Below are positions 15,196 to 46,663 of a stretch of DNA of 64,000 bases, piece by piece. The notes beneath the pieces were generated by a model. It ran no database searches, had not been told where the DNA came from, and saw only the letters and a list, made by a program, of their open reading frames with translations. The DNA lies in contig NZ_CP072347.1 in the NCBI RefSeq assembly GCF_018127925.1, positions 746,501 through 810,500 on the forward strand. Reading direction: 5' to 3'. Each line of letters begins with the position of its first letter. Within the stretch, counting starts at the first letter, position 1. Made by a program: the position numbers and the translations under genes. This stretch comes from Prevotella melaninogenica. Lineage in GTDB: Bacteria; Bacteroidota; Bacteroidia; Bacteroidales; Bacteroidaceae.

Positions 15196-15762
15196 TATAA
15201 AATTGTAATAACAGCCAAATCTTGTGCTTGAAAAGATTAAACCTAAATTAGGTTATTTGATTATAATACTCATATTTTTCGATAACTATCCCCAATTAGA
15301 TGCTCTCACAAAGGGGAATAAATACAAGGTAAAATGTGAATCGATTTGGTGTCTAACCTTTTTCTATAAACAACTTATTCCTTGATTATTCAATGTTTGT
15401 AAACTATTTTCAGACGACTTAAGTCTAATACATGCCCTTTAGGCTTCTTAAAGACGCCCTTTTGGCTTGCAAAAGGTGCCCTTTAAGCCCCTTACTAACG
15501 CCCTTTTGAAGTCCAATTAAGCATCTTTTGATATGCTACTTTCTAACTAATTGATTTCCTTTTGGTTACAAGTCTGCCTATTATATGTGTTTTTACCCTT
15601 ATTTATAGATGTTTTATTTGAAATTATGTAATGTTTTTTCAAATTCCTATCCGTATCTTTGAGGTATTAATAAGAAAAGGTGTCTTGCGTCGGAAAGTTA
15701 TAATAAAATATGTAGTTTGATAGTTTTTATCCTATCATTTTGTTTAATAAGTTACTTCAGTC
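15196..15762. other. non-coding stretch upstream of exbB
   Basis: No gene seen. It contains dispersed repeat copy B (15431-15540); the rest is AT-rich DNA without clear structure. Confidence 0.6.
15431..15540. repeat. dispersed intergenic repeat, copy B
   Basis: Shares CTTACTAACGCCCTTTTGAA, GCTTGCAAAAGGTGCCCTTT and a trailing AATTAAGCATCTTTT with copies A, C and D. Confidence 0.7.
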
Positions 15763-26515: not shown

Positions 26516-28051
26516 ATGATGATGTTTAGTAGAAAGATACTGTTTTTCTTCTTCTGTCTGCTGACAGTCTTTTCTTCCTGTACGGGTGAATTCGTTGATA
26601 TCAACCGACCAGGCAGTAAACTATCGCCAGAGGAGTTGAAGCGCGATAACTATGCTGTCGGTTCATTCTTGATTCAGATGCAGGGGATAGCTTTCCCAGA
26701 GCAGGAGAATGCCTATCAAACAATGATAGACTTTGTTGGTAATTATCTTGGACGTTATACAACCTACACCAAGGAGTTACCTAAGAATCATACACTTTTC
26801 AATGCAAGTAATGCCTGGTGTGCTTGGCCAGCATCTTATGCCCCTCCAATGGTGTCTGCTTTTAATGAGGTTGTCAAACTGAATGGTAAGGGGAATGTTT
26901 CTTATGCGTGGGCATTGATTCTGCGTGCGCAGGCCTTCTTGCGTTTTACGGATATCTACGGACCTTTCCCACTCAGTATGAATGCAGATAATACGGTGGT
27001 TTACACGTCTCAGAGAGATATCTATTTACAGCTGATAAAGGACCTAAATGAGGCTACTGCTTACATCTCATCTGACACGCATCTTGCTAAGGATATGATT
27101 GCTTTTGCACCATACGATCTCGTATATAAAGGTGACTTCAATAAGTGGCGTAAGTTTGCTAATTCACTTAAACTGCGCATTGCCGTGCGTATCAGTAATG
27201 TAGAACCAACGTTGGCACGCTCGTTGGCTGAACAAGCGGTGAGAGATGGCGTGATAGAAGGGAATGATGATAACTGTGCGGTCCGTTATAATAAGTCGGG
27301 TTTATGGACAACAGCTGTTTCATGGGGTGACAGTCGTGTCTGTGCTGATATTGAAAGTTATATGACGGGATATAAAGACCCACGCATGAGCATGTATTTC
27401 CTACAGCCGATGACGGCAGGACAGCGTAAATATATTGGCTGTCGGGCTGGAGCAGCGATAGGGAGTAATATTGTTGCTAAGCGTCTTTATTCAACAGTCA
27501 ATGTGCAAGAAACGACACCAAGTTTATGGCTTACTGCTTCGGAAATGGCATTTTGTAAGGCGGAAGGCGTCTTGCGTGGTTGGAATATGGGTGGTGGTAC
27601 TGCCAAGGAGTATTATGAACGAGGCGTAACATTGTCTTTCAATCAATGGGGAGCAGATGGTGTTGTAAACTATTTGTTGGATGACACCTCGACAGAAGCT
27701 AACTATGCAGATGCTTTAGGTGGCTTTGGTGGAGCGGCTGCAAAGGCTTCTACGATTACTATTAAATGGGATGACAATGCCTCTATGGATGAGAAAATGG
27801 AGCGATTGATTACACAGAAGTGGATAGCTTTGTTCCCAAATGGACAGGAAGCATGGAACGAGATTCGGCGTACGGGTTATCCGCGCATCTTCTCCGTACC
27901 ACAAGCAACAAATGGTTATACGTTGTTGACACCTAATAGAATACCTTTTGATAAGAATCAACAGATTTATAATCGCAGTAATTACGATAAGGCTGTCGAA
28001 CTTTTAGGTGGTCCTGATGATTACGCTACTCCAATGTGGTGGCAGAGATAG
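26516..28051 (+). CDS. SusD/RagB-family nutrient-binding lipoprotein
   Basis: A 511-residue surface lipoprotein (hydrophobic signal, lipobox FSSC near residue 21) that caps the SusC-like channel and binds its substrate. Helical TPR-like segments with LILRAQAFLRFTDIYGPFPL and the C-terminal motif EAWNEIRRTGYPRI mark the SusD-like subgroup often annotated SusD_2. It begins 1 nt after the receptor stop; three consecutive ATG codons at the start leave the exact initiator open. No terminator is obvious. The next gene region, from 28291, has its own promoter. Confidence 0.94.
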   Translation: MMMFSRKILFFFFCLLTVFSSCTGEFVDINRPGSKLSPEELKRDNYAVGSFLIQMQGIAFPEQENAYQTMIDFVGNYLGRYTTYTKELPKNHTLFNASNAWCAWPASYAPPMVSAFNEVVKLNGKGNVSYAWALILRAQAFLRFTDIYGPFPLSMNADNTVVYTSQRDIYLQLIKDLNEATAYISSDTHLAKDMIAFAPYDLVYKGDFNKWRKFANSLKLRIAVRISNVEPTLARSLAEQAVRDGVIEGNDDNCAVRYNKSGLWTTAVSWGDSRVCADIESYMTGYKDPRMSMYFLQPMTAGQRKYIGCRAGAAIGSNIVAKRLYSTVNVQETTPSLWLTASEMAFCKAEGVLRGWNMGGGTAKEYYERGVTLSFNQWGADGVVNYLLDDTSTEANYADALGGFGGAAAKASTITIKWDDNASMDEKMERLITQKWIALFPNGQEAWNEIRRTGYPRIFSVPQATNGYTLLTPNRIPFDKNQQIYNRSNYDKAVELLGGPDDYATPMWWQR

Positions 28052-28290
28052 AATGTTCTCTTTCGCCCACCTTCAAAATATTAGTCCAATAAGATAAAGA
28101 CTGAAGGATGTAAAAAGACGAATTATCGTTTTAAACTAAAGGCGAAGATACAAAGAAAAGATAACGAACTTAGCCCTCATTATTCAAGCCCTCTGCAAAG
28201 ATATTTGCTATTTAATAAGGTAACGTAGAGCAAGAAAAGACAAATGTTTTATTTTTTTTCTATTTTCTTGTTTGTTTCATATATTCTCAC

Positions 28291-28298
28291 TACCTTTG
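28291..28298 (+). promoter_or_regulatory. -7 promoter element of CT-repeat cassette 1
   Basis: TACCTTTG with TTG/TTTG words 16-20 bp upstream. The same TACCTTTG followed by CG/TCGCC occurs at the equivalent place in cassette 2 (44864-44871). Confidence 0.6.
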
Positions 28299-28332
28299 CG
28301 CCCAGTTAAATTAAAATTAACTCGTAATAACA

Positions 28333-28521
28333 ATGAGCGTCATAAAGAATATTAATTCAGCAAAAGTTTGCACCTTAGGAAATAAAGGTGTAGGCTCTAT
28401 TTGTGCTGCATTAGATTCTTTAACGAAGAAAGACAGAAAAAATAGTGCAAATTATTTGGTAGTTCCAAATAATTTTGTACTCTCTCTCTCTCTCTCTCTC
28501 TCTCTAGTAGAGCAGGCGTAA
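28333..28521 (+). CDS. CT-repeat leader ORF, cassette 1 (candidate phase-variable)
   Basis: A 62-codon frame that enters a (CT)13 tract as alternating Ser-Leu codons and stops 15 nt after it. The part before the tract (NYLVVPNNFVLSLSL) is matched by cassette 2 (DYLVVSNNLLLSLSL) at protein level. In a second frame, sequence downstream of the tract stays open to 28799; loss of one CT unit or gain of two would join the frames into a product of about 155 residues. It may be a regulatory leader peptide, a contingency switch or a small protein. Expression is not proven. The promoter lies 35 nt upstream. Confidence 0.45.
   Translation: MSVIKNINSAKVCTLGNKGVGSICAALDSLTKKDRKNSANYLVVPNNFVLSLSLSLSLVEQA
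28449..28475 (+). promoter_or_regulatory. 11-bp hairpin directly before the CT tract
   Basis: AAATTATTTGG-TAGTT-CCAAATAATTT is a perfect stem-loop ending 4 nt before the CT repeat. Cassette 2 keeps an 8-bp version at 44700-44722. Confidence 0.6.
28480..28505 (+). repeat. (CT)13 microsatellite, cassette 1
   Basis: Twenty-six uninterrupted nucleotides of CT inside the leader frame. Each unit gained or lost shifts the reading frame. Confidence 0.95.
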
Positions 28522-28891
28522 CTACTTTTATTTTCTTTCACGCATACGCGCGCGAGGTGAATCGCGTACAAACGAGTAAACAAAGGACTTTCCGTAAGTT
28601 TCCTTTGTTATTTTTTGTGCTTGTTTCTGAACTGTCTAAAGAGCAGAATAAGGAAACCCTAACCACTGATTTTACCGCAAAAGATAATTGTAATTCTCTA
28701 GTAATAGTTTGTTTTCTCTCGTTGATTTCTCGGGTAGGCAGCAGTGATATGCTGTCTGCCTGTAGGGATGGGGAACGAACAAATAAGAGAACTATATAAT
28801 GAAATGAGTTCATCAGGATAGATAATAAAAGGTGTGCAACAAAGTCACATAGAGAGTAGATAACAACTATTTTTAATCAAATCAAAAAGCA
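28522..28891 (+). other. leader region between the CT-repeat ORF and the WED peptide gene
   Basis: It begins with GTAGAGCAGGCG and a CACGC...GCGCGCGAGG block, both shared with cassette 2. One frame is open from before the CT tract to 28799 and includes a hydrophobic segment (KFPLLFFVLVSEL). A hairpin (GGCAGCAG...CTGTCTGCC) lies near 28735-28762. I see no separate gene. Confidence 0.5.
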
Positions 28892-29104
28892 ATGAGAAAG
28901 AAACAAGAAAAGAAGAATTATTCTGCACCAAGTTGCATGATAGTTCAAGTAAATGAAATCACAAATTTAATGGCGGGTTCTCCGTTTAATGGTCAGCATA
29001 ACCCAGCAACTCCTGGAGGAACCATTAGTAGTGCTAAGCAAGCACCAGCATGGCAGGTAGTAGGCGATGAAAATGAAGGAGAATCTTCCGCTTGGGAAGA
29101 CTAA
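28892..29104 (+). CDS. small peptide of the WED family, cassette 1
   Basis: A 70-residue peptide with a Lys-rich N-terminus, no signal peptide, and the C-terminal order QHNPATPGG, SSAKQ, W, GE, WED-stop. The paralogue at 44280-44480 keeps QHNPG, G, SSAKQ, W, W and the terminal WED although the N-terminal halves have diverged, so selection seems to act on the C-terminal half. It is followed after 45 nt by the lipoprotein gene and is surely on the same transcript. Short basic peptides with an LMAGSP-like motif are frequent in Prevotella; their function is unknown to me. Confidence 0.7.
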   Translation: MRKKQEKKNYSAPSCMIVQVNEITNLMAGSPFNGQHNPATPGGTISSAKQAPAWQVVGDENEGESSAWED

Positions 29105-29149
29105 CAGAGAGTTATTAACAAAGAGAACAAAGTAAAAATCAAGAAAACA

Positions 29150-30703
29150 ATGAAACGACATTTATTTATCACACGATTAGTGTCTTTGGCTGTCGTGTTT
29201 GGTTTAACACTAGCTTTTGCCTCTTGTGCGAATGATGATTTAGCACAGAACGGCAAGACCTCCATTGACGATAAAGGGTTAACCGCATTCAGCACTGGCG
29301 AACCTGCAACACGCACAACCATGGAGGCAGATGGTACATTTTATTGGGAAGCAGGCGATAAGATTTGGGTAAAGGATGATAGCGGTAATTGGCAGCAAAG
29401 TAGTAACTCGCCAACGGGCAAGACAGCCTCTTTCAAGTTCTTAATGCCTGGTAAGTACACCGCCAAATCTTCATACGAAGTGTACTATCCTGGTAAGAAC
29501 GGTAACAAGGATAAGGTAACCATCTCTGCGAATCAAACGCAAACAGAGCCAAACACCACCGCCCACTTTGGCGCATCAGGTGATTGCGGTATAGCTAAGG
29601 CAACACGTAACGCTACGACCCACGAGTTCGAGTTCGCACTCGACCACAAGGCAGCTTATCTTGTTTTTAAGCCTTATACAAACGATGGCGTTTTAAGTAA
29701 TTGCTATCTTACGAAAATAGAAGTAACATCAGATAACGATATTACAGATACCTATACCCTTGACCCAACGGCAGCAACTGGCACTGGTGCATTGACAGGT
29801 ACAGGTAACGGAAAGCAGATTGTGCTTGAAACCAAGGGTAGTGGTGCTTATCCTAATGGCTTCCCCTTGACAAACACTTCTGCTAGCCTAACAACCAATG
29901 GTGCTTACATGGTTATCAAGCCAGGTACACACACTTTAAGAATCCGTTACTGGGTAAAGGACGTAGCAACGCAAGTAGAGGGGACCATTACCAAGATTAT
30001 TCCTTCTCATACCTTTGCAAAGAATGAATATGTCAACATGGAAGCAGATCTACAAGTTAAGAATTACGACGGCGACCATTATTATATGTGGGATGCGCAG
30101 CAGCAATATTGGTACGGTTACGAATGGACAAAGAACTTGGGAGCAGGCGTAGGCCAGCCAACGGTTATGTCACCGGCAGCCAATCCAAATTACCCCAAGA
30201 GCAACACAGACCCTCGTTACTTCCACGAGGGTAGCGGTGGGTTTCAAGCAAGCAATAGTTGCTCAACTCTCCCTAACGTGAACGAGATGACGTGGTACGC
30301 AGCCAAAGGCGATCCCCGTTGGGACAAAGACGAGTTATGGACAACTATGGGTCACTTATATAAAGGTGGTATGTGGTTTAAGAAGAAGGCGAATATAAGC
30401 GGATTTGACGCTAACAAAGCTGTAGACGGAAGCGATTGGCGAACAAATTTCCGTGGAAACAGCTGGTCTGTATCTCAGACTCTCCCCGATGCTGCTGACG
30501 CAAACAATTACTTCTACCTGCCCGCCTTGGGTTACTACCAGTCTGGTCAGCTGTACGGCGTTGGCTACCGCAGCTGCTATTGGTCGTCAAGTGCTGACCC
30601 ATGGAACAGTAGCGACGCGTACAACCTGAACTTCAACAGTGGTCACGTCTACGTGAACAACAGCAGCCGCTACCTCGGGTTCAGGGCGGAGGCGCTTCAG
30701 TAG
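29150..30703 (+). CDS. fimbrillin-like lipoprotein with C-terminal FISUMP/C-lectin-like domain, cassette 1
   Basis: A 517-residue lipoprotein: signal peptide with lipobox FASC (Cys26), a fimbrillin-type N-terminal domain (ATRTTMEADGTFYWEAGDKI at 53-72, then repeated beta segments to about 300) and a C-terminal domain from about 385 with WTTMGHLYKGG, YFYLPALGY, YWSSS, AYNLNFNSG and RYLGFRAEAL, typical of FISUMP or formylglycine-enzyme/C-lectin folds. It should be surface-exposed. The last 160 nt are about 58% GC by my count and rich in AAC/NNC codons, unlike the rest of the gene and unlike its paralogue at 42584, which resembles the variable region of a retroelement-diversified protein. Confidence 0.85.
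   Translation: MKRHLFITRLVSLAVVFGLTLAFASCANDDLAQNGKTSIDDKGLTAFSTGEPATRTTMEADGTFYWEAGDKIWVKDDSGNWQQSSNSPTGKTASFKFLMPGKYTAKSSYEVYYPGKNGNKDKVTISANQTQTEPNTTAHFGASGDCGIAKATRNATTHEFEFALDHKAAYLVFKPYTNDGVLSNCYLTKIEVTSDNDITDTYTLDPTAATGTGALTGTGNGKQIVLETKGSGAYPNGFPLTNTSASLTTNGAYMVIKPGTHTLRIRYWVKDVATQVEGTITKIIPSHTFAKNEYVNMEADLQVKNYDGDHYYMWDAQQQYWYGYEWTKNLGAGVGQPTVMSPAANPNYPKSNTDPRYFHEGSGGFQASNSCSTLPNVNEMTWYAAKGDPRWDKDELWTTMGHLYKGGMWFKKKANISGFDANKAVDGSDWRTNFRGNSWSVSQTLPDAADANNYFYLPALGYYQSGQLYGVGYRSCYWSSSADPWNSSDAYNLNFNSGHVYVNNSSRYLGFRAEALQ
30541..30703 (+). other. AAC-rich, GC-rich 3' segment resembling a DGR variable region
   Basis: Codons cluster as AAC or single/double changes from AAC at the adenines (AGC, TAC, CAC, CTC) within an otherwise GC-rich frame (AACTTCAACAGTGG, GTGAACAACAGCAGC), ending in an adenine-poor block before the stop. 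No reverse transcriptase or template repeat is in the window. Confidence 0.4.
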
Positions 30704-31353: not shown

Positions 31354-31794
31354 ATGAAAATTCGTTTAGTACCAAAGAAAAATCCGCAGAAGCGGGAAGA
31401 AGTAAAGTTTTATGCTAACCCTGTTAACCTTGGGCATAAGTCGCTCGACGATATTGCGCGTGACATTGCGGGGCGTTCGTCCTTGACACGTGGTGATGTG
31501 TCGAACGTGTTGTATAACTTTATCGATTGCTTGCCCCATTATCTCCGTGATGGTTTCAGCATTCAGTTGGGCGAGTTTGGCTCGATGCGTGTCACACTGT
31601 CAAGCAAAGGGGCAGAAACTGAAAAAGCTTTTAAGACTGAGACGATTAAGCCGCGTGTGGTCTTCACACCCGGAACAGAATTGAAGCGTGAGCTTTCTGC
31701 AAACTCCTACGAATCGGTGAGAAAGACAGAAGAGGCAGGGAAAGAGAAAAAGGAAAAGAAAGAAGAAAATGGACCTGTACCAGACACCGTCTAA
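31354..31794 (+). CDS. HU-related DNA-binding protein
   Basis: A 146-residue protein of the Bacteroidetes HU-like group (histone-like, longer than classical HU). The N-terminal leader is followed by the HU dimer core (LDDIARDIAGRSSLTRGDVSNVLYNFIDCLPHYL, about residues 31-64) and the beta-arm region (GFSIQLGEFGSMRV to PRVVFTPG). The C-terminal 25 residues form a Lys/Glu-rich tail. It is expected to bend or coat DNA. It stands alone between the GC-rich repeat block and a terminator; I see no partner. Such paralogues are often next to surface or mobile loci, which fits here. Confidence 0.9.
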   Translation: MKIRLVPKKNPQKREEVKFYANPVNLGHKSLDDIARDIAGRSSLTRGDVSNVLYNFIDCLPHYLRDGFSIQLGEFGSMRVTLSSKGAETEKAFKTETIKPRVVFTPGTELKRELSANSYESVRKTEEAGKEKKEKKEENGPVPDTV

Positions 31795-39330: not shown

Positions 39331-40875
39331 ATGTGGCTGAATTCTTATTCCCATTTTTTTAAGGCAACGATAGCTTGTACAAGCTTATTATTCTCGCCGG
39401 TAGTTCTTCCAACGCTTCATGCTCAGGAGCAGAACGTTGTAATAATTAATCCGACAGATTCTCCTGCGGAAATTGTTCATAAGGCAGCAAATGTTGTTCC
39501 TTCTGCTCGTCAGTTTAATTGGCAGCGTCAGGAACTTACTGCTTTCTTGCATTATGGTATAAACACCTATACTGGTAGAGAGTGGGGTGATGGTAAGGAG
39601 TCACCAGCTATCTTCAATCCTACTGACCTTGATGCTGATCAGTGGATACGTGAGTTGAAGGCAGCAGGCTTTAAGTGTGCTATCCTTACTTGTAAGCACC
39701 ATGATGGTTTCTGTTTGTGGCCATCGGCTTATACAGAACATAGTGTTAAGAACTCTCCATGGAAGAACGGTAAAGGTGATGTTGTACGTGAGGTGAGCGA
39801 TGCCTGCAAGAAGTATGGTATGGACTTTGGTGTCTATCTCTCTCCTTGGGATCGTAATTCAGATCTTTATGGAACTGAAGCTTATAACGACTTCTTTGTT
39901 AAACAGTTGACTGAATTGCTTACACAATATGGTAAGGTAAGTGAAGTGTGGTTTGATGGTGCTTGTGGTGAAGGACCAAATGGTAAGAAGCAGGTGTATG
40001 ACTTCGTACGTTGGTATGAACTTATTCGTAAGTTACAGCCAGAGGCAGTGATAGCTGTCATGGGACCTGATGTTCGTTGGGTTGGTACAGAGACTGGTCG
40101 TGGTCGTGAGATGGAATGGAGTGTTGTTCCAAAGGACAATCTTGATCAGGAAGCTATTGCAAAGAACTCACAGAAGGAAGTACTGACTGCACCTGTTGGT
40201 GATATGATGGGGCAAGACCTTGGTAGTCGTAAGAAGATTGAAAAGGCAAAGTCACTTATTTGGTATCCAGCTGAGATTGACGTATCTATCCGTCCGGGAT
40301 GGTTCTATCATGAGGATCAGGATAGCAAGGTGAAGTCGCCAAAGGAACTGATGGATATCTATTTCACATCTGTCGGAATGAATGGTGTACTCCTCTTGAA
40401 TCTTCCTCCTAATAAGGAAGGTAAACTTTCTGAGGCTGATATAAGAAGTCTTCGTGGTTTCCGCCAGTTGTATGCAAATACCTTCACTGATAATCTCTTG
40501 GCAAAGGCAAAGGTTACTTGTGTGCTTTCAGAGGGTAAGGGTCGCAATGTTATTGACGATAATTATGACACTTCTGTACGTCCAAAGATGAAGGATGGTA
40601 AGGCTGTATTCTCATTCAAACTGAATAAACCTGCCACCTTTAATGTCCTTTCTGTGCAAGAGGATATCCGTAAGGGACAGCGTGTGGAGAAGTTCTCACT
40701 CGAAGTAAAGGATGCTAAGGGCAACTGGAAGAAAGTAACAGAGGGTACGACCGTTGGTCATAAGCGTTTGTTGAAGTTCCCTGTCGAGACTGCTAAGGAG
40801 GTGCGCCTTATCATCAGCGAGGTTCGTGCAGTGCCAACAATCTCTGAAATTGGTTTATACCGATTAAGAGATTAA
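39331..40875 (+). CDS. alpha-L-fucosidase (GH29), copy 1
   Basis: A 514-residue secreted enzyme with signal peptide (residues about 1-31, LHAQ), a GH29 catalytic barrel (about 60-385) with KHHDGFCLW (122-130) and the nucleophile Asp209 in VWFDGACG, and a C-terminal beta-sandwich (about 390-514) that reads like a small carbohydrate-binding/discoidin fold. It hydrolyses terminal alpha-L-fucose from host glycans. It is divergent from the amino-sugar operon. From residue about 57 on it is nearly identical to the copy at 45161. A terminator follows, and an IS element is inserted just after the terminator's T-run. Confidence 0.95.
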   Translation: MWLNSYSHFFKATIACTSLLFSPVVLPTLHAQEQNVVIINPTDSPAEIVHKAANVVPSARQFNWQRQELTAFLHYGINTYTGREWGDGKESPAIFNPTDLDADQWIRELKAAGFKCAILTCKHHDGFCLWPSAYTEHSVKNSPWKNGKGDVVREVSDACKKYGMDFGVYLSPWDRNSDLYGTEAYNDFFVKQLTELLTQYGKVSEVWFDGACGEGPNGKKQVYDFVRWYELIRKLQPEAVIAVMGPDVRWVGTETGRGREMEWSVVPKDNLDQEAIAKNSQKEVLTAPVGDMMGQDLGSRKKIEKAKSLIWYPAEIDVSIRPGWFYHEDQDSKVKSPKELMDIYFTSVGMNGVLLLNLPPNKEGKLSEADIRSLRGFRQLYANTFTDNLLAKAKVTCVLSEGKGRNVIDDNYDTSVRPKMKDGKAVFSFKLNKPATFNVLSVQEDIRKGQRVEKFSLEVKDAKGNWKKVTEGTTVGHKRLLKFPVETAKEVRLIISEVRAVPTISEIGLYRLRD

Positions 40876-40947: not shown

Positions 40948-42407
40948 TATTGCTGTCCGATAAAACCTCCATATACTGCAATATCCTCTCTCAATCCTGC
41001 TGAAATAGGCATGATTAGTTCTAATTTCAAATTCCAAGCCCCCCTAGAATAATGACAACTCTTCTGGTGGGGCTTTTACTTGGGTAATCAATCTATCCCA
41101 GTCTCTATGTGGCTGCTCAAAGAAACTCTGTATTGAGACATAACTCATAAGTAGAATTCTTATCATTGTTGCCAAGCCTGAGAAGCTCCAAGGTCTCTTT
41201 ATTTTGTTCTTCACTAGGGTTATAAGCAGATTGGCTATAAGCGTAATCCATATTTGTATTTTTATAGCATTCGCACTCTCTCCATAGAAGTATCTTAGCG
41301 GGAAATTCTGTTTTATTTGTTTAAATAAGGTTTCTATTTGCCATCGTCTCTTATAGATAGCTATAATATCTTCTGCCGACATCTGAAAATCATTGGTCAG
41401 CAGTGATATTAATCTGATTTTCCCTTTCTTGGTCTTATCCTGATATGTGATTTTTCTTGCTTTATGGTAGATATCTTTTTCCTTTGTATGCTTATGGAAG
41501 AGAATGGTTTCTACGCGTACAGCTCCATAATCTGTAGTCATCTGGTAATCTGTATCAGCAATCCTTTCAAAGCTAAGATTATTTTTCATCTTAGTTACAT
41601 ATATAACGCCTCTTTGCGTCAGTTCAGAGAACTTTTCATAGTTTATATAGGCTCGGTCAAAAGCAATCAGTTCCTCATTGGCATATCGTTCTGGGATAAG
41701 TGCAAACTGATCATGACTAGCTGCAGATGTGAACTTGATATCGCTTGGAACATTCTCATTGGCAAATATCACTGTATGTACTTTTATTCCACCCTTCTTC
41801 TTGCCAGTTTTGGGATTACGTCCTACACCTTTAAAGACTAGGTTAGAAAACAGACTTATTGTCGTAGAATCTATTATTTGTAGATTCTTCAGCCATTTGG
41901 GCTGTCCACTATTTGGGCTGTCCGAGTAAAGCTCATGGCGGTATTTCTCATATAGGTTCATATAGATCGAACCGAATATCTCGGAATCTCGACGTTTGTT
42001 TGCATCTGATAAGGTACTTCGACAAGGAAAATGCTTTAAACCAAGATGATTAAAGCGATTAACATTAGCAAAGAGAGAGGCTTTTATCTCACGCAGAGAG
42101 TCTAAACGCAGCATTACGGCATAAAGCATGACAACAAGATGATGCCATGCATCAAACTTCTTTATATAGTGTTCACCTCCCTGAGCTTGGCTCAGAGAGA
42201 GAATTTTATCACGATTAAAATAGTTTAACAGTTGAACATATAGTGGCTGTCCGATAAAATGTGTACTTTTGTTCATCTTATTTCATTGTTTTATTTTGAC
42301 AACTACAAAGGAAATAAGAAGGGCTGAATGTACAAAACAATCAGCCCGTTTTTTTATTATTCTGAATTAATAAGATATGAACGCAAAAGTTTTATCGGAC
42401 ACCAATA
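40948..42407. mobile_element. IS4-family insertion sequence, 1460 bp, intact
   Basis: Terminal inverted repeats of 19 bp with one mismatch (left TATTGCTGTCCGATAAAAC, right complement TATTGGTGTCCGATAAAAC), and flanking 9-bp direct repeats TTTTTATAT at 40939-40947 and 42408-42416. It encloses one transposase gene on the minus strand. The target lies in the T-run of the fucosidase terminator. Confidence 0.85.
41044..42276 (-). CDS. IS4-family transposase (DUF4372 type)
   Basis: A 410-residue DDE transposase. The N-terminal DUF4372-like region (about 1-100, with FDAWHHLVVMLYAVMLR) is followed by the catalytic core with Asp136 (QIIDSTTISLF), Asp207 (AFDRAYINY) and Glu315 in the YREK-type signature (YKRRWQIETLFKQIK, Tyr308, Arg311, Glu315, Lys322). 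Complete and uninterrupted, so the element is probably active or recently active. It lies inside the inverted repeats given for the IS. Confidence 0.95.
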   Translation of the reverse strand: MNKSTHFIGQPLYVQLLNYFNRDKILSLSQAQGGEHYIKKFDAWHHLVVMLYAVMLRLDSLREIKASLFANVNRFNHLGLKHFPCRSTLSDANKRRDSEIFGSIYMNLYEKYRHELYSDSPNSGQPKWLKNLQIIDSTTISLFSNLVFKGVGRNPKTGKKKGGIKVHTVIFANENVPSDIKFTSAASHDQFALIPERYANEELIAFDRAYINYEKFSELTQRGVIYVTKMKNNLSFERIADTDYQMTTDYGAVRVETILFHKHTKEKDIYHKARKITYQDKTKKGKIRLISLLTNDFQMSAEDIIAIYKRRWQIETLFKQIKQNFPLRYFYGESANAIKIQIWITLIANLLITLVKNKIKRPWSFSGLATMIRILLMSYVSIQSFFEQPHRDWDRLITQVKAPPEELSLF

Positions 42408-42583: not shown

Positions 42584-44233
42584 CTATTCAAAGAATGGGC
42601 CTGAGCCTGTCTGACCGTTTTTGAAAGGTGCAGCTATGATGCCCGACCTACGGTCACTACCAAAGTCGTGCATATCAAGGTAATCTTTACTGATAGACAT
42701 ATGCCAGGCGTGTGTGCTCCCTCCTGTTGGTGCAGCTGTTGAAGACCAGTAGCCACCATTTCTACCACATTCTTGAAATGCTCCGTTATTATACGAGCCA
42801 AGAGCAGGTAAGTAGAAATAGTCAGCTTGTTCGGCAGCATCAGGAAGAGTTTTTTTGGGAACTGTATAATATGGGGTGGTCATTATGATAATTGTATGGG
42901 TACGCATATCAACACCAGCTACTCCTTTTGTTTTCATGTAGGCCGTAGTAACATGTTGATCAGCTGCAATTCTGGAGAGTTTCTTTAACCACACGCCGCC
43001 TTTGTAAAGATGACCCATTGTTGCCCATAGTTCATCAGTATCCCAACGAGGGTCACCTGCACGAGTATACCAAGACATTTCATTAGCACTTAGCAGCGTC
43101 TGAAAGAGAGGCGTTGTAGCGTCCTGTGGGTTGCTGGGATCGCAAACCACCTCGTTATACCAGCGAGGGTCAGTATTGTTTTGTGGATAATTGGGATTCG
43201 ATTGATACCAAAGTTTCGGCTGCCAGGGGTCAGAAGAGTCCCATTCATGGCCTGCCCAATAGTTCTGCTGGGCATCCCACATGTAATATTGGTGACCGTC
43301 GTAGCTACGAATATTAAGATCAGCTATCATGTCGTAATAGGTGTTCTTTACATAATTAAAAGAACTGAGCACCTTTGTAATGGTTCCCTCTATGTTATTG
43401 ACTACATCTTTCACCCAATAGCGGATTCTAAGTTTATGTGTACCTGGTTTGATAACCATGTAGGCGCCATTGGTTGTAAGGTCAGCAGCGCTGTTGGTCA
43501 ATGGGAAACCATCGACGTAAGTACCGCTTCCCTTTGTGGTAAGGATAATCTGTTTGTGATTAGTAGAAGACCATGGTGTTCCACCTGTCAGTTTGTTCGT
43601 TGTGAAATCAAATGTATAGGTGTCAGTAATATCATTGTTAGAGGTAACTTCTATCTTTGTCAGATAGCAATTACGAAGAACGGCGTTGCTCGTGTAAGGT
43701 TGGAAGACGAGATAGGCAGCCTGATGATCGAGCTTGAAGCTGAATGTTTTTCCGCCGACGGTTCCTGTTGCGTCAGCCGTTCCACAGTCGCCCGACTCAC
43801 CCAAGTGGGCTGTAGTATTTGGTACAGTCTGCGTCTGGGCAGCTAGAATGGTCACTTCATTTTGATTTCCGTTCTTGCCAGGATAAAAAACCTTATAGGA
43901 TGCTTGTTCCGTGAACTTACCTGGTACCATGAAACTAAAAGAGGCTGTCTTTGTGGTAGGAGCGTTACTGCTCTTCTGCCACATGTAGTTGTCATCCTTT
44001 ACATAGATATGGTCACCAGATTCCCAATAGAAAGCACCAGTGTTGTAGTCTAGTGAAGTGCGAGTGTTTGGATCTGTACCTGTTGTAAACGTAGTCAGGT
44101 TCTTGTCGTTGTCGGCATCTGTGTCTGTTGTTTTCTGCGTTATGTCCTCATTGGCACAAGAACCCAGCACCAGCATAAAACTGCAAAGGGCTATGAGCGA
44201 CATCAGATGCGCCCTAAATAAATCTTTTTTCAT
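42584..44233 (-). CDS. fimbrillin-like lipoprotein with C-terminal FISUMP-like domain, cassette 2
   Basis: A 549-residue paralogue of the protein at 29150: lipobox LGSC (Cys26), then CANEDITQ against CANDDLAQ, NTRTSLDYNTGAFYWESGDH in the fimbrillin-type domain, the same ITDTYTF and MVIKPGTHKLRIRYWVKDV blocks, and the C-terminal LWATMGHLYKGG, YFYLPALGSY and GGYWSSTAAP motifs. Unlike copy 1, the extreme C-terminus uses ordinary AT-rich codons and ends in a different sequence (GQTGSGPFFE). It is preceded by a WED-peptide gene (46-bp gap) and a CT-repeat leader, exactly as in cassette 1. Confidence 0.85.
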   Translation of the reverse strand: MKKDLFRAHLMSLIALCSFMLVLGSCANEDITQKTTDTDADNDKNLTTFTTGTDPNTRTSLDYNTGAFYWESGDHIYVKDDNYMWQKSSNAPTTKTASFSFMVPGKFTEQASYKVFYPGKNGNQNEVTILAAQTQTVPNTTAHLGESGDCGTADATGTVGGKTFSFKLDHQAAYLVFQPYTSNAVLRNCYLTKIEVTSNNDITDTYTFDFTTNKLTGGTPWSSTNHKQIILTTKGSGTYVDGFPLTNSAADLTTNGAYMVIKPGTHKLRIRYWVKDVVNNIEGTITKVLSSFNYVKNTYYDMIADLNIRSYDGHQYYMWDAQQNYWAGHEWDSSDPWQPKLWYQSNPNYPQNNTDPRWYNEVVCDPSNPQDATTPLFQTLLSANEMSWYTRAGDPRWDTDELWATMGHLYKGGVWLKKLSRIAADQHVTTAYMKTKGVAGVDMRTHTIIIMTTPYYTVPKKTLPDAAEQADYFYLPALGSYNNGAFQECGRNGGYWSSTAAPTGGSTHAWHMSISKDYLDMHDFGSDRRSGIIAAPFKNGQTGSGPFFE

Positions 44234-44279: not shown

Positions 44280-44480
44280 TTAGTCTTCCCAAGTGGAAAC
44301 GCCCTCTTTGCCTTCTTGCAACTCTTCCCAGTTCATTCCCTGCTTGGCACTGCTTGGACCTGTACCGTGCTGACCCGGATTATGTTGGCTGGGGAAAGAG
44401 GTTTCCATTAGCGAAGAAGTTTTTACATACACCAGAGTAGATACAGGGATGCAATAAGTTTTTAATTGTTTTTTCTTCAT
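44280..44480 (-). CDS. small peptide of the WED family, cassette 2
   Basis: A 66-residue peptide without signal sequence, starting MKKKQLKTY. The C-terminal half keeps QHNPG, GTG/SSAKQ, W and the terminal WED of the cassette 1 peptide, while the N-terminal half differs. The DNA after its stop (ACTAACGAAAGAGAGTTATC) also matches the region after the cassette 1 stop. It lies 46 bp before the lipoprotein start. The function is unknown; constant position and conserved C-terminus suggest a shared job with the lipoprotein. Confidence 0.7.
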   Translation of the reverse strand: MKKKQLKTYCIPVSTLVYVKTSSLMETSFPSQHNPGQHGTGPSSAKQGMNWEELQEGKEGVSTWED

Positions 44481-44654
44481 AATTTATAGAATTATATAAT
44501 GCAACGTTTGGTCTTATTTTGTCTTCTGTTAGTTCACAAAAAGGCATGGGTTACTGCACAAGGGGAACTCTACCGAGCCCTTTGTGGATAAGAGTTTGCG
44601 AGACATGCCTCGCGCGCGTGAACGAGAAATAAAAAAGGATGGTCTGCGTCTGCT

Positions 44655-44822
<168 letters not shown>

Positions 44823-44863: not shown

Positions 44864-44871
44864 CAAAGGTA
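44864..44871 (-). promoter_or_regulatory. -7 promoter element of CT-repeat cassette 2
   Basis: The minus strand reads TACCTTTG, 42 nt before ATG 44822, matching the arrangement in cassette 1. Confidence 0.55.
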
Positions 44872-45160: not shown

Positions 45161-46663
45161 TTGCAACCATCTGTTTGCTATTCATGCCCGCTTTGCTACA
45201 GCATCCCATGCTCTGGAAAAGAATCTTGTGGCCTACAACCCACCGACAGTCCCGCTGATATTGTCAGGAAAACTGCCCAGATGGTGCCTTCTGCTTGTCA
45301 GTTTAATTGGCAGCGTCTGGAACTTACGGCTTTCTTGTATTATGGTATAAACACCTATACTGGTAGAGAGTGGGGTGATGGTAAGGAGTCACCAGCTATC
45401 TTTAATCCTACTGACCTTGATGCTGATCAGTGGATACGTGAGTTGAAGGCAGCAGGCTTTAAGTGTGCTATCCTTACTTGTAAGCACCATGATGGTTTCT
45501 GTTTGTGGCCATCGGCTTATACAGAACATAGTGTTAAGAACTCTCCATGGAAGAAGGGTAAAGGTGATGTTGTACGTGAGGTGAGCGATGCCTGCAAGAA
45601 GTATGGTATGGACTTTGGTGTCTATCTCTCTCCTTGGGATCGTAATTCAGACCTTTATGGAACTGAAGCTTATAACGACTTCTTTGTTAAACAGTTGACA
45701 GAATTGCTTACACAATATGGTAAGGTAAGTGAAGTATGGTTTGATGGTGCTTGTGGTGAAGGACCAAATGGTAAGAAGCAGGTGTATGACTTTGTACGTT
45801 GGTATGAGCTTATTCGTAAGTTACAGCCAGAGGCAGTGATAGCTGTCATGGGACCTGATGTTCGTTGGGTTGGTACAGAGACTGGCCGTGGCCGTGAGAT
45901 GGAATGGAGTGTTGTGCCAAAGGACAATCTTGATCAGGATGCTATTGCAAAGAACTCACAGAAGGAAGTGCTGACTGCACCTGTTGGTGATATGATGGGT
46001 CAGGATCTCGGTAGCCGCAAGAAGATTGAAAAGGCAAAGTCACTCATTTGGTATCCAGCTGAGATTGATGTGTCTATCCGTCCAGGTTGGTTCTATCATG
46101 AGGATCAGGATAGCAAGGTGAAGTCGCCAAAGGAACTGATGGATATCTATTTCACATCTGTCGGAATGAATGGTGTACTCCTCTTGAATCTCCCTCCTAA
46201 TAAGGAAGGTAAACTCTCTGAGGCTGATATAAGAAGTCTTCGTGGTTTCCGCCAGTTGTATGCAAATACCTTCACTGATAATCTCTTGGCAAAGGCAAAG
46301 GTTACTTGTGTGCTTTCAGAGGGTAAGGGTCGCAATGTTATTGACGATAATTATGACACTTCTGTACGTCCAAAGATGAAGGATGGTAAGGCTGTCTTCT
46401 CATTCAAACTGAATAAACCTGCTACCTTCAATGTCCTTTCTGTGCAGGAGGATATCCGTAAGGGACAGCGTGTTGAGAAGTTCTCACTTGAGGTGAAGGA
46501 TGCCAAGGGCAATTGGAAGAAAGTAACTGAGGGTACAACCGTTGGTCATAAGCGTTTGCTGAAGTTCCCTGTTGAAACTGCTAAGGAGGTACGCCTTATT
46601 ATCAGTGAGGTGCGTGCAGTGCCAACTATCTCTGAAATTGGACTTTATCGCTTAAGAGATTAG
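45161..46663 (+). CDS. alpha-L-fucosidase (GH29), copy 2, N-terminus frameshifted
   Basis: The frame from 45161 gives 500 residues, nearly identical to copy 1 from the INTYTGREWGDGKE segment to the C-terminus, with the VWFDGACG nucleophile motif intact. The expected signal peptide is in another frame: ATG 45121 encodes MRIKVYSPFIKSTVATICLL and stops at 45258. Between them, HALEKNLVAYN in the third frame matches HAQEQNVVIIN of copy 1. Two single-base losses, near the CCC at 45205 and the CCC at 45239, would restore one continuous secreted enzyme. Either copy 2 is a fresh pseudogene or the assembly has two small errors. Confidence 0.8.
   Translation: MQPSVCYSCPLCYSIPCSGKESCGLQPTDSPADIVRKTAQMVPSACQFNWQRLELTAFLYYGINTYTGREWGDGKESPAIFNPTDLDADQWIRELKAAGFKCAILTCKHHDGFCLWPSAYTEHSVKNSPWKKGKGDVVREVSDACKKYGMDFGVYLSPWDRNSDLYGTEAYNDFFVKQLTELLTQYGKVSEVWFDGACGEGPNGKKQVYDFVRWYELIRKLQPEAVIAVMGPDVRWVGTETGRGREMEWSVVPKDNLDQDAIAKNSQKEVLTAPVGDMMGQDLGSRKKIEKAKSLIWYPAEIDVSIRPGWFYHEDQDSKVKSPKELMDIYFTSVGMNGVLLLNLPPNKEGKLSEADIRSLRGFRQLYANTFTDNLLAKAKVTCVLSEGKGRNVIDDNYDTSVRPKMKDGKAVFSFKLNKPATFNVLSVQEDIRKGQRVEKFSLEVKDAKGNWKKVTEGTTVGHKRLLKFPVETAKEVRLIISEVRAVPTISEIGLYRLRD

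Follow-up and report, generated by a model that had tools for sequence, protein, structure and literature searches.

A leader element carrying a (CT)13 repeat upstream of a lipoprotein gene in Prevotella melaninogenica is probably a phase-variable transcription attenuator, operated by the translating ribosome and switched by repeat slippage. The features on which this reading is based were read directly from the DNA, i.e. the anatomy of the element, its 60-fold recurrence in the genome, covariation in the terminator, the passage of one frame through the terminator, and the depletion of that open frame among the present tract lengths. The window, which is the whole stretch of 64,000 nucleotides that was analysed (contig NZ_CP072347.1, positions 746,501 to 810,500, forward strand), contains two copies of the element. 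The first copy and the genes behind it comprise the following features.

28291 to 28298, plus strand: promoter element TACCTTTG, read from the sequence, which we take to be a Bacteroidota-type −7 element
28333 to 28521, plus strand: leader ORF of 62 amino acids in the present frame (n = 13), from ATG at 28333 to the stop TAA at 28519–28521
28449 to 28475, plus strand: 11-bp hairpin AAATTATTTGG-TAGTT-CCAAATAATTT, directly 5′ of the repeat (sequence and fold)
28480 to 28505, plus strand: (CT)13 tract, the proposed slipping switch, currently in an early-stop frame
28506 to 28799, plus strand: second open frame, i.e. the read-through frame, which is open for 291 nt, crosses the terminator and stops at 28797–28799
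28579 to 28616, plus strand: terminator-like hairpin AACAAAGGA...TCCTTTGTT followed by ATTTTTT (fold and alignments across copies)
28892 to 29104, plus strand: ORF of a small protein of 70 amino acids ending in SAWED, the first gene past the terminator
29150 to 30703, plus strand: lipoprotein of 517 amino acids with the lipobox FASC (by pattern) and a variable C-terminus
31354 to 31794, plus strand: HU-family DNA-binding protein (PF18291, TIGR01201), 3′ of the lipoprotein and a putative member of the operon

The leader peptide reads MSVIKNINSAKVCTLGNKGV...NYLVVPNNFV(LS)nVEQA. An earlier note on this DNA had described the promoter, the ATG at 28333, the 11-bp hairpin, the (CT)13 tract and the early stop, and all were present at their places when the sequence was read. 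The note was also correct in that the frame containing TCT-AGT-AGA is open to 28799, and that loss of one CT unit or gain of two would join it to the ATG with a product of about 155 residues; by arithmetic, CT counts of 12 or 15 give 154 or 156 residues. Absent from the note were the terminator hairpin at 28579–28616, the family of copies, the (AC)n class of 41 loci, and likewise the mechanism. The hairpin is positioned 3′ of the leader and 5′ of the small protein and lipoprotein genes, and the read-through frame stops 92 nt before the next gene. A general terminator scan did not flag the hairpin, though it was visible in the fold and in the alignments, probably because the scan permits no loop longer than 8 and no bulge. 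No match was returned by an Rfam search of region 28000–29200, or by an NCBIfam search with the leader peptide of the window. The window additionally contains seven short tandem arrays with a period of 22 and differing units, at 15434, 22138, 31076, 31153, 50669, 57484 and 63077.

In total, 60 loci were identified in the P. melaninogenica genome, 19 with (CT)n and 41 with (AC)n tracts, all in one type of element with the order promoter, leader, hairpin, repeat, terminator stem and surface-protein gene. The 19 CT tracts explained all 222 (CT)9 matches in the genome and the 41 AC tracts all 352 (AC)7 matches, and a scan of the same genome for (AT)7 gave zero matches. The 19 CT places were obtained with a threshold of 7 or more units, by a pattern blind to tracts of 7–8 units starting with T, and the AC loci were counted by a pattern giving one match per tract, with all 41 inspected. 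A search of the genome with the leader protein returned matches at the 19 CT places (20 rows, two for one place). The copies are related, and counts over them are therefore not independent. The tracts are uninterrupted slippable repeats whose unit number is of consequence, as in simple-sequence contingency loci, and ranged from 9 to 37 units in the CT class and from 6 to 38 in the AC class.

Promoter elements were located at characteristic distances, TAnnTTTG lying 188–190 nt 5′ of the tract in 13 of the 19 CT copies (178–284 nt in the other six), and TA[CT]CTTTG lying 120–121 nt 5′ of the tract in all 41 AC copies. The aligned start codon across the leaders was ATG, GTG or TTG when judged by eye; most AC leaders had GTG at this position, and L217 had ATG. 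The repeat was situated 5′ of the putatively regulated genes, inside a leader ORF that has a start codon of its own, with two exceptions: in L013 (CT) the leader frame was interrupted by stops, and L173 (AC) had an open stretch without ATG or GTG. A TTGG-type hairpin preceded the tract in 41 of 41 AC copies by pattern.

A premature terminator between leader and operon was found in the copies of this genome, i.e. in 18 of 19 CT copies by scan and, as a stem matching the pattern, in 39 of 41 AC copies, L167 and L192 having a variant with one base of the 3′ arm changed. TTTTT was present at +95 to +130 in every AC copy (41/41). When GC box and terminator were combined into one pattern, 54 sites were obtained in the genome (overlaps merged; 16 CT, 38 AC), and all 54 were just 3′ of one of the 60 tracts. 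Covariation of the stem was examined in 34 distinct sequences derived from the 52 of 68 CT loci that were placed by the segment pattern, the other 16 having no terminator segment by that pattern. Both sides had changed in 25 cells, where shuffling gave 8.2 such cells on average and never more than 15, and at most 13 cells were double-changed in the control where the partner was slid. Pairing was retained in 86% of the cells, against a shuffle maximum of 82%, and the outermost of the ten counted pairs forms in only 8 of the 34 sequences. The 68 CT loci are those left after dropping nine matches too near to contig ends, with L088–L097 omitted as belonging to the same genome as G570; no usable tract was present in L074 and L080 (cut at contig ends), L082 (decayed tract) and L075 (which looks spurious).

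The hairpin is weak in most CT copies, at about −8 to −11 kcal/mol (energies refer to the CT class only), and 1–3 nt often separate the 9-bp stem from the T run. In the terminator scan of the 68 CT loci none was found in nine, including the second copy of the window, and in about eight of the other 59 (e.g. L070, L079, L113, L135) the terminator was weak or misplaced. In distant relatives it was often weak or not found by the scan. Three AC loci are in the open frame, of which L167 and L192 have the base change in the 3′ stem arm and L170 does not; L172 also has a 3′-arm change, yet it is in an early-stop frame.

In 18 of 19 CT and 40 of 41 AC loci (58 of the 60), exactly one frame continued without a stop for 68 nt or more beyond the tract, while the other frames ended −1 to 23 nt after it in nearly all loci of the genome, and the terminator was located at about 68–108 nt. 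The short form accordingly stops before the terminator and the long form ends in or past it; in the 18 CT loci with a scanned hairpin, the read-through frame ends past the whole hairpin. Among the 58 loci with one open frame, this frame is currently held by only five (L023, L024, L167, L170 and L192), against 19.3 expected (p = 1.8e-5). Relatives were in the open frame in 2 of 31 CT and 0 of 13 AC loci (17 AC loci, of which 15 gave rows and 13 had one open frame), and the combined count was 7 of 102 (p = 2.8e-10). The three phases were occupied by 15, 3 (the open one) and 17 of the 35 standard AC loci. Slippage alone would give equal phases, so the depletion of the open frame indicates that repeat length modulo 3 has consequences.

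Two frames were open in 17 of the 68 CT loci, mostly in distant relatives, and these loci had no clear bias, an open frame being occupied in 8 of the 17 where 11.3 would be expected (relatives 8 of 16 against 10.7; own genome 0 of 1). Both AC loci of relatives with two open frames (L194, L196) were in an open frame. In a shuffle test on 18 clusters, 16 combined an open frame with an early-stop frame where 9.4 were expected (p = 0.0012), and 7 had exactly one open and two early frames where 2.7 were expected (p = 0.011), both of which are moderate effects. A count of stop avoidance in the A-type open frame gave 2 new stops against 1.8 expected and was uninformative.

The genes behind the tracts were of two recurrent kinds. 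At the CT loci, a small protein was directly behind the tract in 17 of 19 cases, and the large protein, of 483–909 amino acids, likewise carried a lipobox, as judged by pattern, in 17 of the 19; in L021 and L025 the large gene came first and was without a lipobox, and that of L025 matched PF13306, the BspA-type leucine-rich repeat family. By eye, the same two kinds were recognised at 40 of 41 AC loci (exception L164), the large gene being cut by the end of the locus in 30. The lipoproteins are presumably exposed at the cell surface. Neither the small protein nor the lipoprotein of the window had a match in Pfam or NCBIfam, and the predicted structure of this lipoprotein had a mean pLDDT of 44. 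A candidate HU-family gene was located behind 16 of the 19 CT lipoproteins by the rule of the script, although by eye that of L027 looks like another gene. The HU-family protein of the window (31354–31794) has a charged, glycine/proline-rich tail.

The C-termini of the lipoproteins contained 23 variable columns when region 30484–30703 of the window was compared with the same region in 11 others. The variable positions were encoded by NNC codons, the third base being C in 233 of 276 in the 12 chosen proteins, a pattern which resembles adenine mutagenesis by a diversity-generating retroelement. RVT_1 gave three matches at two places in the genome, and a search of 15 kb around each of them turned up no template-like match. 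That such a retroelement is at present diversifying the lipoproteins was not upheld, no template repeat having been found beside the reverse transcriptase in these regions.

The second copy in the window is on the minus strand and comprises the following features.

44864 to 44871, minus strand: promoter element TACCTTTG
44655 to 44822, minus strand: leader ORF from ATG 44822, with the stop 2 nt past the tract at n = 17
44700 to 44722, minus strand: hairpin before the repeat
44660 to 44693, minus strand: (CT)17
44557 to 44586, minus strand: degenerate terminator stem CACAAAGGG...CCCCTTGTG, without an adjacent T run
44280 to 44480, minus strand: small protein
42584 to 44233, minus strand: lipoprotein

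Both copies in the window, with n = 13 and n = 17, are in an early-stop frame, the second with a decayed terminator, and the terminator scan of the CT loci found none at the second copy. A near-identical gene pair at 39331–40875 and 45161–46663, presumably encoding alpha-L-fucosidases, flanks both the second switch and a transposase-like gene at 41044–42276.

Beyond this genome, the leader protein was matched in 11 of 150 genomes in the genus sample. The pattern of hairpin plus CT was present in 21 of the 398 genus genomes scanned and, in the family sample, in 8 of 301 genomes, belonging to 2 of 30 genera; its reversed form, used as a control, had no match in any row. Carriers include Prevotella jejuni DSM 26989, P. 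denticola NCTC13067 and P. vespertina A2879. The AC pattern was present in 7 of 24 CT carriers examined, with a maximum of 7 per genome, and was not found in the relatives G570 and G146. Loci of other species that share similar flanks differed in tract units, i.e. 27 v 5, 15 v 12, 17 v 11 and 26 v 11, where orthology is assigned by flank similarity only and draft assemblies may give incorrect tract lengths. By far the longest tract seen, (CT)263, was in the same element in a relative (G061, locus L072, position 1546 onward). Phage records gave no match, and a scan of viral contigs gave two, one being a leader cut at the contig end and the other a bare hairpin with three CT units, which is probably a chance match.

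Because the anatomy matches that of the pil1 leader of Streptococcus gallolyticus, the same mechanism is proposed here. RNA polymerase would start at TACCTTTG and make a leader RNA coding for a short peptide, and a ribosome would translate through the hairpin and the (CT)n tract. With the wrong number of units, a stop would be met within about 20 nt and the ribosome would leave; the hairpin at 28579–28616 would then form, transcription would end, and the small protein and lipoprotein would be off. If n is divisible by 3, as 12 and 15 are here, the ribosome would cross the terminator and hold the hairpin open, allowing the operon to be transcribed. Replication slippage would alter n and result in random switching between cells. 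In this scheme we infer that the leader is translated and that transcription terminates, as well as how fast slippage occurs and which frames are ON or OFF. The hairpin before the tract may, speculatively, be a pause site that keeps the ribosome close to the polymerase, or it may promote slippage.

The earlier note had proposed a contingency switch ahead of a surface lipoprotein, and this proposal gained support from the frame statistics, the 60-fold recurrence, and the terminator being crossed by one frame. It had left the target of control between the leader product and the downstream genes. That the leader peptide or its long form of about 155 amino acids is the phase-variable product, the downstream genes being incidental, is unlikely. 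A long form does exist in one phase, and an open frame is kept under weak constraint, with a pN/pS of 0.68 before the hairpin (33 of 68 leaders, i.e. those with an in-frame ATG and an NKG-like motif). The read-through extension, however, had a pN/pS of 1.17 in the CT class and 0.78 in the AC class, so that its protein sequence is hardly constrained, with no amino-acid constraint at all in the CT class, and among the 19 CT copies it ended at many places, with lengths of 106–335 nt; it also coincides with the covarying terminator, and a lipoprotein-type gene recurs behind the tract in both classes (17/19 CT by lipobox pattern, 40/41 AC by eye). On the basis of the CT-class pN/pS and the differing extension lengths, control of the downstream genes is favoured and the leader product is not. 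A similarly small probability is given to a frame-blind action of tract length through RNA structure, spacing or DNA shape, e.g. H-DNA at CT tracts. Such an action would suit the tract of 263 units in one relative and the conservation of the hairpin before the repeat: in the last 14 leader codons, which contain the hairpin, pS was 0.098 against 0.502 upstream, indicating that this stretch is held as nucleic acid, and paired changes were seen by eye in relatives. It does not predict that the open frame is depleted (7/102) while the two early frames are about equally occupied (15 and 17), and the position of the tract, 120–190 nt 3′ of the promoter element in 57 of the 60 copies, also speaks against it.

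Slightly more probable, although still improbable, is that the read-through frame couples translation to the small protein gene or protects the mRNA, and does not act by antitermination. This would be consistent with the gap of 5–97 nt between the end of the read-through frame and the next gene, seen in 19 of 19 CT copies, but the distances vary widely without any stop-start overlap, and the covarying hairpin with its T run is located exactly inside the read-through frame. Hardly to be expected is that slippage-prone repeats have merely spread along with repetitive sequence and have no regulatory effect; the copies are indeed highly similar and dispersed, with 60 loci here against one CT and no AC copy by pattern in G146, yet the frame bias, the terminator covariation and the conserved gene order behind the tract all argue against it. 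Ribosome-mediated attenuation is the preferred reading of the element. Building on it, we consider it reasonably likely that the genome holds about 60 independent, ribosome-operated and repeat-tuned switches, nearly all before a surface lipoprotein-type gene with a hypervariable-looking C-terminus (where examined), which would be mostly off with few of the sixty displayed, the module having been copied and dispersed.

Parallels exist in other bacteria. The opa genes of Neisseria are dispersed surface-protein genes, each with its own frame-switching CTCTT repeat, and the Prevotella family is similar in its dispersal, in having one repeat per gene and in frame switching. In opa, however, the repeat is within the surface-protein ORF and acts on translation, whereas the Prevotella repeat occupies a leader ORF distinct from the surface-protein gene, and its proposed effect is on transcription. 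Surface loci of Bacteroides are controlled by invertible promoters through DNA inversion by recombinases, which likewise results in random on/off expression of many surface products in Bacteroidota, but by recombinase inversion and not by slippage of short repeats as here.

The closest likeness is to the pil1 and pil3 attenuators of S. gallolyticus, in which repeats are located in a leader-peptide ORF and a stem-loop terminator precedes the operon (Danne et al. 2014, PMC3894217, of which a part is drawn on here). There, when the GCAGA repeats of pil1 change out of frame, the leader extends into the premature terminator and transcription increases, and the effect of longer leaders is supported by genetic evidence (PMC3894217); the corresponding extension into the terminator is here read from the sequence. 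The streptococcal system consists of pentanucleotide GCAGA repeats at two loci in the studied strain of a Gram-positive species, before pilus operons (PMC3894217), whereas the present one consists of CT or AC dinucleotides at 60 dispersed loci in Bacteroidota, before lipoproteins. The conserved hairpin before the repeat has no counterpart in the part of PMC3894217 considered. In amino-acid operon attenuators of the E. coli trp type, the position of the ribosome in the leader decides whether the terminator is formed (background in the same part of PMC3894217), as is proposed here, but the signal there is tRNA charge and here would be repeat number.

A search of titles and abstract openings in the open-licence literature, with subscription papers and preprints outside its scope, gave no description of this system, and within that literature the proposed mechanism was found demonstrated only in a streptococcus. 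New here are the phylum, the dinucleotide units, the two repeat classes, and the dispersed repertoire of 60 loci.

Prevotella is a common oral genus. If the proposed mechanism is true, it would possess a very large surface repertoire driven by slippage, which would explain heterogeneity of the surface from cell to cell, and long-read genomes would reveal the predicted ON states. With sixty near-identical natural switches that differ in repeat length, both ribosome-mediated antitermination and the instability of repeats could moreover be studied well in Bacteroidota.
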